Part shown: positions 6,418 through 45,728 of the stretch, one piece after another
How positions within the stretch are numbered: position 1 is the first letter of the stretch
Layout of the letters: each line of letters starts with the position of its first letter
Origin: Bernardetiaceae bacterium
Lineage (GTDB): Bacteria > Bacteroidota > Bacteroidia > Cytophagales > Bernardetiaceae
Length of the DNA: 49,135 nucleotides
NCBI GenBank assembly: GCA_020832465.1
Contig: JAFIER010000147.1
Location: 1-49,135, forward strand
Direction of reading: 5' to 3'
Notes under the pieces: generated by a model
What the model saw: only the letters and a program-made list of their open reading frames with translations
Told to the model about the DNA's origin: nothing
Databases searched by the model: none
Translations under genes and position numbers: made by a program

Positions 6418-6499
6418 ATTTTATTTTTTGAAATCTACCCTTCAAGCACAAAGCTATGAAAAAGTAAACTTTATTAAGCACTTTATAAAAAATTGTTAA

Positions 6500-6640
6500 G
6501 CCAATTTCATACCTCTATACATTTTTCCATAACGTGGGGGTTGCAGCCCCCAGAGGCTATGGAAAAATGAGCTTAGAAATAACATTTCTCTGAGAAATGT
6601 TATTTCTGGCTGCCGAATATCTATGTAGTATGAGCCAATT
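6500..6640 (+). repeat. Composite hairpin element, copy 1, with flanking 7-bp repeat
   Basis: The element runs about 6507-6633. Imperfect terminal inverted repeats begin TCATACctCTATACAT (left) and, on the reverse strand from the right end, TCATACTACATAGAT. Inside are hairpin B (6520-6569; arms CATTTTTCCATA / TATGGAAAAATG with an inner GGGGG/CCCCC stem) and hairpin A (6575-6607; 15-bp arm AGAAATAACATTTCT, loop CTG). GCCAATT flanks both sides (6500-6506 and 6634-6640), as expected for a target-site duplication. The other copies are at 17748-17858 and 29522-29638. Confidence 0.7.
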
Positions 6641-6715
6641 TGTACACTACACTGTGTTTTTATAGTTTCAGAACAAACATTTTTTGTGCGATATTATTTT
6701 TAAGTGTTACGGACT

Positions 6716-17747: not shown

Positions 17748-17858
17748 AATACACCGCTATAAATTTTTCCATAGCATGGGGTTTGCAAACCCCACGCTAT
17801 GGAAAAATGTTATTGCTAAAAATTATAACTGCCTCCTGGCTAATGTATAGCAGTATGA
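17748..17858 (+). repeat. Composite hairpin element, copy 2
   Basis: It lies between convergent genes. Hairpin B is well kept (17763-17808): ATTTTTCCATAGC pairs with GCTATGGAAAAAT around the 18-bp palindrome TGGGGTTTGCAAACCCCA. The right end GTATAGCAGTATGA matches the element terminus, and the left end is AAATACACCGCTATAAAT. Hairpin A is decayed: GTTATTGCT remains but its partner arm is lost. No flanking duplication is obvious. Hairpin B could also act as a bidirectional terminator. Confidence 0.65.
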
Positions 17859-19762: not shown

Positions 19763-19795
19763 AGAACTAACAGTTTTCGAAAAACTGTTAGTTCT
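19763..19795. repeat. 15-bp stem, 3-nt loop hairpin
   Basis: The left arm is AGAACTAACAGTTTT, the loop CGA, and pairing is perfect. It is nearly the same as the hairpin at 45669-45701, in which the third pair from the loop inward (T-A) has become C-G on both sides. Confidence 0.65.
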
Positions 19796-27957: not shown

Positions 27958-29517
27958 ATGACAGAATTTTGGTATCCGATAAGTTATGTTGCCCTGCTTT
28001 TCTCGGCTGCACTTTGGTTTTATCTCAAAGAGCGTCAGCTTAAAGCGGGCTTGGCAAGCAAAGGCTTCTTCTTCTCTGCATTAGTTTATTTGCTTTCTTT
28101 GTTTTTCGACGGGGGAGGCTTGCTCTATCAGCTACTTGGAAAGCTTACGCCCGACCTTGTAATTTTTACGCTTGTAGTACTCGTACTCAACCGATTTGCA
28201 CCGCGCAACCGCGTTTTTTACTTTACCATTTTTGCCGTTTTTGCGGGCGTTAAAGTGCTCTTTTTCGACCCTGCGCGTGAGGCTACGGTTTCTTATTTCA
28301 ATAGCGACCCCCAAGAAGTTTCACACAAATTAGCCAGTGACGGCGAGCTTTTGGTAGATATTAAACTCACGCCCGAAGCACAAAAAGCACTCAAGGCAAT
28401 TATTACAAAGTATGATTTGCGCATGGAGCTTGCTTTTCCTCATATTAAAAACCCGCACCTTACTAGTCTAAACGAGTATTATACACTCGATGTGCCGACT
28501 GAGCGTCTCTCCGAGTTGGAAGAAATTAAAAACGCTTTGCGCAACTCGAATGCCATAGACCACTTAGAAGAAAATGAAGTGCTTAGCGTACCCGAAGACC
28601 AAACTGCAAAGCTCAAAACCCAACGTCGCCAGCCTAACTACGGCATTAACGACCCTGATTTAGAAAAACTTTGGGGATTTGAAGTCATGGAAGTCGATGC
28701 ACTTTATAAACTCATCAAAGAAAAAAATATTAAACCCAAGAAAAAGGCAAAAATATTTATTCTGGATACAGGCGTAGAAGCAGACCACGAGGATATTGCT
28801 GCTAATTATCTTAGCGTCGATGCTAAAAGTGATTATGACAAACTCGGACATGGCACACACTGCGCAGGTATTGCTGCTGCTGTTTCTAACAATCAAAAAG
28901 GAATTGCATCTTTTTCGCCCAATAACGAGTTTGTTACCGTAACAAGTGTAAAGGTATTGAGCGACTCAGGCTTTGGTTCACAAAAATCAGTCATTGATGG
29001 TATTATTAAGGCTGCTGATGAGAAAGCTGATGTTATTTCTATGTCTTTGGGCGGTCCTTCTAACGACTTGAGCCAGCGCGCTTACAACGAAGCTGTTCGT
29101 TATGCCAATGAAGCTGGTGCAATTGTCGTAGTTGCAGCTGGAAACTCCAACAAAAGTGCAAAAGGCTTCTCACCGGCTAACTCTAAAAACGTGATTGCCG
29201 TCTCAGCTATCGATGAAGACCTCAGCCGAGCTTCATTTTCTAATTATATCGATGAAGTAGAAATGGGCATAGCAGCACCAGGAGTACAGATATTTTCTAT
29301 ATTCCCTAAAGGGCAATACAAAGCTTTGAGCGGTACATCTATGGCTACGCCTTATGTAGCAGGACTGCTCGGGCTTATGAAGGCTATCAATCCGAATATG
29401 GATACAAAAACAGCCTATCAACTGCTGTCACAAACAGGTAAAGAAACAAAAGATAACATCAAAACAGGGTACTTGATTCAGCCTGCTAAGGCTATTCAAG
29501 CCATTAATTTTGAATAA
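27958..29517 (+). CDS. Membrane-anchored S8 subtilisin-like peptidase
   Basis: A 519-residue protein. Four hydrophobic segments occupy about 8-22, 36-51, 66-80 and 88-104. An inhibitor-I9-like propeptide region follows (about 130-212: LVDIKLTPEAQKALKAII). The catalytic domain (about 235-519) has D270 (FILDTGVEADH), H298 (GHGTHCAGIAA), oxyanion N396 (AAGNSN) and S461 (GTSMATPYVAGL). The catalytic triad is intact. A four-helix membrane domain in front of a subtilase is unusual; most are secreted with a simple signal peptide. Topology cannot be fixed from the sequence, so the protease side is uncertain. It is divergent from the CarH-like regulator gene, which makes control by it possible. Confidence 0.9.
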   Translation: MTEFWYPISYVALLFSAALWFYLKERQLKAGLASKGFFFSALVYLLSLFFDGGGLLYQLLGKLTPDLVIFTLVVLVLNRFAPRNRVFYFTIFAVFAGVKVLFFDPAREATVSYFNSDPQEVSHKLASDGELLVDIKLTPEAQKALKAIITKYDLRMELAFPHIKNPHLTSLNEYYTLDVPTERLSELEEIKNALRNSNAIDHLEENEVLSVPEDQTAKLKTQRRQPNYGINDPDLEKLWGFEVMEVDALYKLIKEKNIKPKKKAKIFILDTGVEADHEDIAANYLSVDAKSDYDKLGHGTHCAGIAAAVSNNQKGIASFSPNNEFVTVTSVKVLSDSGFGSQKSVIDGIIKAADEKADVISMSLGGPSNDLSQRAYNEAVRYANEAGAIVVVAAGNSNKSAKGFSPANSKNVIAVSAIDEDLSRASFSNYIDEVEMGIAAPGVQIFSIFPKGQYKALSGTSMATPYVAGLLGLMKAINPNMDTKTAYQLLSQTGKETKDNIKTGYLIQPAKAIQAINFE

Positions 29518-29521
29518 CTTC

Positions 29522-29638
29522 TCATACTACTATACACGCAGCAATAACATGGCTCAGAGCCATGTTATTGCTAAGCTTATTTTTCCATATCGTGGGGTTT
29601 GCAAATCCCACGCTATGGAAAAATGTATAGTGATATGA
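29522..29638 (-). repeat. Composite hairpin element, copy 3 (inverted)
   Basis: It starts 5 bases after the subtilase stop, between convergent genes. Read on the minus strand it has the same order as copy 1: end TCATATCACTATACAT, hairpin B (29579-29624, arms ATTTTTCCATA / TATGGAAAAAT with GTGGG inside), then AGCTTAG, hairpin A (29540-29572, 15-bp arm AGCAATAACATGGCT, 3-nt loop), and end GTATAGTAGTATGA. The differences from copy 1 inside hairpin A are paired substitutions. No flanking duplication is evident. Confidence 0.7.
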
Positions 29639-45604: not shown

Positions 45605-45668
45605 TTCGTATTTCGGAAACACTGGCAAAGTTTGAAATTTTGCTGTTTCCATAATTTACTCAGTATCA

Positions 45669-45701
45669 AGAACTAACAGTTCTGTCAGAACTGTTAGTTC
45701 T
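45669..45701. repeat. 15-bp stem, 3-nt loop hairpin between S41 and M16 genes
   Basis: Arm AGAACTAACAGTTCT, loop GTC, perfect pairing. It starts 65 bp after the S41 stop and ends 27 bp before the M16 GTG start. It could separate the two genes or shape the M16 leader. One pair differs from 19763-19795 by a compensatory T-A to C-G change. Confidence 0.65.
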
Positions 45702-45728
45702 AATTTTGGAACAAAAATCAAAATAATT

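Follow-up and report, generated by a model that had tools for sequence, protein, structure and literature searches.

The window (i.e., the whole 49,135-bp stretch of DNA that was analyzed, contig C92 of a 4.60-Mb draft genome in 289 contigs) hosts three related hairpin-bearing segments. Copy 1 spans positions 6508-6632 from one terminal inverted repeat (TIR) to the other by direct reading. It comprises a left TIR (CATACCTCTATACATT, 6508-6523, plus strand, two mismatches in the first 14 bases), hairpin B (ATTTTTCCATA...TATGGAAAAAT, 6521-6568, plus strand, read from the sequence within an HMM match at 6508-6632), hairpin A (the 33-bp palindrome AGAAATAACATTTCTCTGAGAAATGTTATTTCT, 6575-6607, plus strand, from sequence reading and HMM search), and a right TIR with the end TAGTATG (6617-6632, plus strand). 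The copy is bracketed by a 9-bp target site duplication, AGCCAATTT, at 6499-6507 and, identical in 9 of 9 bases, at 6633-6641; the right TIR and the right duplication were delimited by sequence reading and the duplication count. The GCCAATT previously noted on both sides of copy 1 is part of this longer duplication.

Copy 3 (29523-29637, minus strand) carries TIRs, hairpin B at 29579-29624, and hairpin A at 29540-29572, and it lies 5 bp past the stop codon of a subtilase gene (27958-29517); its flanks agree at 6 of 9 bases, with no clear duplication. Copy 2 (about 17750-17857, plus strand; HMM match 17752-17857) is decayed, retaining TIR remnants and hairpin B (17763-17808, hairpin B match 17764-17807); the AGCTTAG spacer is missing, hairpin A is degraded, and its TAACA core is gone. 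The original prediction that all three segments share the same order of parts therefore stands for copies 1 and 3 and fails for copy 2. No target duplication is visible by eye around copy 2, whose left end was too decayed for the duplication count. The hairpin A module also occurs in the window outside these segments, at 19763-19795, where the flank resembles by eye a decayed end of the frame M3 (see below), and in a region at 45659-45703 (minus strand; AGAACTAACAGTTCT-GAC-AGAACTGTTAGTTCT). The note had seen no transposase with matching ends in the window, and no transposase was found there: genome searches with PF01609 and PF01797 gave three matches each, none of them on C92, and none of seven window ORFs scanned with Pfam is a transposase. 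Rfam returned no match in the window at the gathering threshold.

The three segments are copies of a high-copy, ~122-bp non-autonomous element, here named M1, which has TIRs (CATACTACTATACATT), two hairpins, 9-bp target duplications, and no coding capacity. Further copies, on which the original prediction depended, are plentiful in this genome. Copy 3, used as a query against the genome's DNA, had at least 40 matches, itself included (40 of 489 first-look candidates were scored and all 40 matched; the best non-self E value among the matches listed was 1.1e-31). Genome-wide, the TIR CATACTACTATACATT occurs with up to two mismatches at 495 ends (252 forward and 243 reverse), compared with 9 (4 + 5) for a reversed-pattern control. 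We also used a 449-kb sample consisting of the window and 20 stretches of 20 kb taken from large contigs. An HMM built on 52 copies, part of them from this same sample, found 127 separate matches in it, namely 56 near-full copies, 11 left parts, 52 right parts (i.e., hairpin A, in some cases together with the right end), and 8 others; simple scaling from the sample would put the genome total at several hundred copies. Length is 120-129 bp in 42 of 73 well-ended copies, and in shorter copies a hairpin is missing altogether or has lost its middle.

Target duplications accompany M1 well beyond copy 1. Among 33 well-ended sample copies, at least 7 of 9 flanking bases are duplicated in 19 (0.85 for shuffled flanks), and the 9-bp duplication is exact in 6 (0.23 for shuffled flanks). 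Exact duplications at other lengths were absent from these 33 copies at 4-7 and 10-12 bp, with two at 8 bp. This count dropped 23 of the 56 near-full copies, window copy 2 included, for a diverged end or a cut flank. In a wider set of 73 distinct M1 copies, which includes loci picked by exact TIR match and is thus enriched for intact ends, at least 7 of 9 bases agree in 48 copies and all 9 in 25 (the shuffle was confined to the smaller set); the distribution of flank agreement is two-humped, with 6 of 9 or fewer in 25 of the 73. An empty-site search, in which the 73 joined flanks were compared with 667 kb of own-genome sequence, gave three weak junction-crossing matches (76-77% identity) that concern 2 of the 73 copies, two of the three belonging to one copy.

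Placement is mostly intergenic. Fifty-two of the 56 near-full copies lie outside ORFs of at least 100 aa, which make up 82% of the sample. Convergent gaps account for 15 of 51 M1 copies versus 44 of 264 gaps, and in 21 of the 41 cases in which an M1 gap is bordered by a 3' gene end, that end is no more than 30 bp away. M1 would survive in intergenic DNA because insertions close to gene 3' ends are tolerated.

With regard to relatives, the own genome is the sole member of its genus in our 59-genome set, and the ten nearest genomes represent other genera of the same family. Of 291 genomes of the order, 39 (the own genome and 38 of 290 others) have TIR ends with up to one mismatch, with 277 ends in the own genome, 17 in G008, 15 in G154, 14 in G141, 11 in G054, 7 in G001, and 6 in G125; the remaining positive genomes have fewer than 6, and where a genome has just one or two, these may be chance matches. 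At the same threshold, the same-family genomes G002, G003, and G005 have none, which contradicts the outcome named as refuting a mobile repeat, that is, the same sequence in all relatives. Paired M1-type ends with a perfect 9-bp duplication occur twice in G054 and once each in G105 and G141, and in three M1-type frames of G008, 7, 7, and 6 of 9 flanking bases agree. The frames of these relatives hold other interiors, often palindromic by eye, and the M1 frame is therefore more widespread than its contents. M1-type ends were also seen beside or around other palindromes, of the GGGCAACCGCAAGGGT type, the GTGCCTTAGCGTC type, and the CCCCCTCTGGAGGGGG type (L149 in G125, L148 in G141, and L153 in G179). 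The idea that the M1 interior of every relative is that genome's own free-standing palindrome was unsupported by small samples: local-interior motifs number 1-4 each per 7-80 kb, part of these being the element itself (G054, G105, G179, G008, G001, and fragments in G141/G125), no own motif was counted for G154, and free-standing interior copies are clear only in the own genome.

The original prediction had suggested looking for an autonomous transposase with the same ends, and one lies elsewhere in this genome. The PF01609 search of the whole genome found three DDE genes, and the one on contig C277 has CATACTACTAGACAAA on either side. This putative partner IS (C277:26832-28055, 1224 bp) encodes a 384-aa transposase, and its end shares 13 of 16 bases with the M1 consensus TIR. 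The protein matches PF01609 (E value 5.5e-22, 78.9 bits, cut-off 23), contains an exact YREK motif (Y271-x2-R-x3-E-x6-K285), and, among 14 listed NCBIfam families, scores highest against the IS4 model NF033591 (149.7 bits, just below the cut-off of 152; next best family, 67 bits). By these three features, the predicted enzyme belongs with the IS4 family. A protein search of the genome found a single assembled copy. Contig C277 stops at the last base of the IS, leaving the IS's own duplication beyond the contig; such an ending would be expected if the assembler had stopped at a repeat. The duplication length of 9 bp was thus read on M1 and on the composite described below, not on the C277 IS itself. 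Elsewhere, the only named relative of the transposase comes from a Phaeodactylibacter MAG (51% over 102 residues), a match that hints at Bacteroidota but falls short of placing the organism, and there is a broken relative in G004, a member of another genus (57% and 41% identity in two pieces), where CATACTACTAGACATT lies 27 bp past the matched region.

Table 1 of PMC2266710 lists for the subgroup IS4Sa of the IS4 family a length of 1150-1750 bp, CA ends with T at position 9, a YREK motif, and a duplication of 8-10 bp. The C277 IS is similar in length (1224 bp), in its CA ends with T at position 9, and in YREK, and a duplication of 9 bp, as seen at M1 and at the composite, falls within the tabulated range (PMC2266710). 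Judged by the Table 1 features alone, with no tree, the C277 IS fits IS4Sa (PMC2266710). Unlike IS4Sa elements, M1 codes for nothing. An origin of M1 as an internal-deletion derivative of the C277 IS was rejected, as the two have only their outer ends in common.

A composite at C194:766-908 (143 bp) consists of 31 bases identical to the 5' end of the IS with a whole M1 directly behind them, and it is bracketed on both sides by the 9-bp duplication ATCCAAACC. Apparently, an end of the IS was used here together with an end of M1, which makes the composite a concrete case of end sharing. We regard it as indirect support for mobilization of M1 in trans, with the C277 IS4 element as probably the motor.

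Collectively, it is very probable that M1 is a MITE whose ~16-bp ends are recognized in trans by an IS4-family transposase and whose hairpins are exchangeable, recombining modules. In the mechanism that we propose, the two inverted ends of M1 would be recognized by an IS4-family DDE transposase encoded elsewhere, which would act in trans to excise M1 and paste it into mostly intergenic DNA, with 9 bp of target duplicated upon insertion. Hairpins A and B would not define the ends; they would be modules that other MITE frames contain as well and that also occur outside any frame, and they may serve as sites of recombination between elements. The original prediction had left the choice between a MITE and a REP-like element, and the MITE half is borne out by the TIRs, the 9-bp duplication, the many dispersed copies, and the transposase with matching ends.

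We analyzed the two hairpins in 33 of the 56 near-full copies (those of 112-136 bp). Pairing holds in 92.4% of the cells of both stems, compared with 88.0% in 200 shuffles (maximum 89.4), and double changes number 24, compared with 7.5 (maximum 14); the shuffle ignores relatedness, and related copies inflate these figures. Both stems are kept palindromic by paired changes, an effect that replication template-switching, instead of function, could also give. The hairpin A pattern (AGAAMTAACAKTTCT-NNN-AGAAMTGTTAKTTCT) matches about 932 sites in the own genome (932 forward and 934 reverse, which for a palindrome are essentially the same sites). Among the 59 genomes, G003 has 14 matches and the other 57 relatives have 0-1, and a reversed control matched 1 + 1 times in G008 and nowhere else. 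In G003, 12 of the 14 sites have a run of at least five T at the 3' foot, on either strand, like intrinsic terminators, which suggests where the hairpin A module may have come from. Hairpin B, with up to three mismatches, has 83 matches in the own genome and, among 11 family genomes, one each in G007, G009, and G010. Its frame in G007 and G010 is a different one, with GACTTTCGCAAATTC ends, and no frame is recognizable around the G009 match. The GACTTTCGCAAATTC-ended, MITE-like frame has near-identical flanks in the two genomes (L188 in G007 and L190 in G010).

In the 449-kb sample, 101 strictly paired hairpins were found, 50 of them in M1, 5 in M2, 8 in M3 (the second and third frames described below), and 38 in other contexts; some of the last are decayed frames and four have another core, so that 34 of 97 lie outside frames once these four are removed. 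The four share the core AACTYTGACAAAG...CTTTGTCARAGTT (L105:9825-9857, L115:772-804, L116:3154-3186, and L121:7870-7902). Counted by frame in the same sample, hairpin A is present in 19 of 22 strict M1-M1 pairs, 13 of 13 M2 copies, and 8 of 15 M3 copies. A role of hairpin A as an uptake sequence was put aside: its half-words are near-equal in number (81 and 89 for the C form in the sample), as expected if half-words come as pairs.

M2 is a second, nearly uniform MITE, with ends GGTAGTGTATAACAAGTAATGC and GGTAGTCTTAAAGATGTAATGC (L112:830, L121:6978, L114:3911, and 10 others). Its duplication is exact over 8 bp in 9 of 13 sample copies, and the genome contains 111 ends of its first type, with some copies beside or inside M1 sequence. 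The ten family genomes contain a single relative frame; it lies in G004, its ends are similar, its duplication is also 8 bp long, and its interior differs. M3 is a third frame, with the unequal ends GGGTGTACGACAACTTTGCTAAATT and GGGTGTACGTCAAGTTGGTAAATCGACTTAG (GGGTGTACG... ends), as at L118:14207-14297, L119:5687-5771, and other loci. It hosts up to two copies of hairpin A and sometimes an extra palindrome, GAAGCTCCAGCTTCG; 177 ends of its first type were counted in the own genome and none in the ten family relatives. In addition, there are five chimeric pairs with an M1 end on one side and an M3 end on the other, four of which have hairpin A in between. Two of these chimeras (L112:7228-7332 and L115:12036-12168) have clean ends and non-matching flanks, as expected of recombination rather than transposition. 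Recombination may be the route by which hairpins are exchanged.

The spread of hairpin A invites other explanations for how the frames came to share it. It could itself be mobile, a palindrome with MITEs and intergenic DNA as its insertion sites, as its ~932 genome sites and the sample hairpins outside the M1, M2, and M3 frames would allow. However, some of the 34 remaining hairpins are decayed frames, no uniform flanking duplication or insertion signature is seen by eye, and no dedicated enzyme was found, and we consider self-mobility of hairpin A rather doubtful. Common descent, in which one ancestral MITE changed its ends, would account for hairpin A being in many copies of all three frames and for its spread mostly within one genome, yet it is an unlikely source of the shared hairpins: the ends of M1, M2, and M3 look unrelated, the duplication length differs (9 bp for M1 and 8 bp for M2), the G004 M2 frame holds another interior, hairpin B sits between GACTTTCGCAAATTC ends in G007 and G010 and is frameless in G009, and M1-M3 chimeras exist.

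Abundant intergenic hairpins are also what would be seen if M1 were made of REP- or BIME-like palindromes moved by a RAYT (Y1/HUH) enzyme, and the genome does contain three Y1_Tnp genes, one of which, on C105 (235 aa), is RAYT-like by eye. Y1 enzymes are not known to make target duplications, whereas M1 makes 9-bp ones. Moreover, a GTAG/CGTC tag is not visible by eye in hairpin A or B, and the small hairpins in the 205 bases that follow the C105 gene are of the CACCCTTTAGGGTG type rather than A or B. A REP/RAYT origin is thus very improbable and was rejected for M1 in view of its 9-bp duplications and its DDE-type partner, and with it the REP-like half of the original prediction falls away, the partner being of the IS4 family and the RAYT-like gene lying near other hairpins. 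The RAYT-like gene itself (L033, i.e., G000:C105, 1060-1764) lies by eye between DNA-methyltransferase-like and helicase-like ORFs; around it and the other two Y1 genes, a search for inward M1 TIR pairs with up to five mismatches found none. Finally, conserved structured RNAs or terminators at orthologous sites, favored by the compensatory changes in both stems, the placement near gene 3' ends, and the terminator-like T runs at the 12 G003 sites, are a highly improbable reading that was rejected on the Rfam result, the end counts of relatives (none in G002, G003, and G005, and presence in only 38 of 290 other genomes), and the target duplications, and hairpin B moreover has, by eye, T on its 5' arm and A on its 3' arm, opposite to the order in an intrinsic terminator.

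The reading of M1 as a MITE with an IS4-type partner has precedents. The MIC231 and IS231-related elements of Bacillus are non-autonomous and are mobilized by an IS4-family transposase via shared ends. M1 is likewise non-autonomous and shares its ends with an IS4-family element, but unlike MIC231 it contains no gene, measures ~122 bp, has a very high copy number, and includes palindromes. In Nostoc, small dispersed repeats are nested inside other repeats, and the M1 hairpins would be comparable tiny repeats nested in others. The accounts of bacterial MITEs in PMC3733652 and PMC2817692, as far as they concern Correia/NEMIS, RUP, ERIC, and Nezha, describe non-coding, gene-adjacent elements of 70-300 bp with TIRs and strong secondary structure, traits that M1 shares. 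The same accounts trace Correia and RUP to IS630 (PMC3733652, PMC2817692), and M1 differs from these in its IS4-type partner, its 9-bp duplication, and hairpins shared with frames that have other ends. Like the REP, REPIN, and GTAG/CGTC palindromes covered there (PMC2817692, PMC3733652), M1 is abundant, short, intergenic, and kept complementary. It differs from REPs and REPINs with their RAYTs in having DDE-type TIRs and target duplications, no visible tag, and no RAYT seen flanked by its palindromes.

In a literature search that left subscription journals mostly outside its reach, no title or abstract opening described M1. M1 makes up a new MITE family, with an IS4-type partner, of a kind already known; the unusual part is the sharing and swapping of cores between frames. 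Bacterial MITEs are usually seen as derivatives of one IS. M1 looks like an IS4-derived MITE assembled from exchangeable palindromic modules, and its palindromic cores are common to two other frames in its own genome, to one frame in two relatives, and to the terminator-like hairpins of G003. We put forward, tentatively, that palindromes may be a currency between transposon families, with hairpins shared between frames that differ in their ends, halves swapped through these hairpins, conserved frames refilled with other interiors from lineage to lineage, and a hairpin-level spread on top of transposition. Given its abundance, M1 probably shapes hundreds of intergenic regions in this organism, and if the exchange of palindromes between frames is real, it would offer a testable origin for MITE interiors and for orphan intergenic palindromes.
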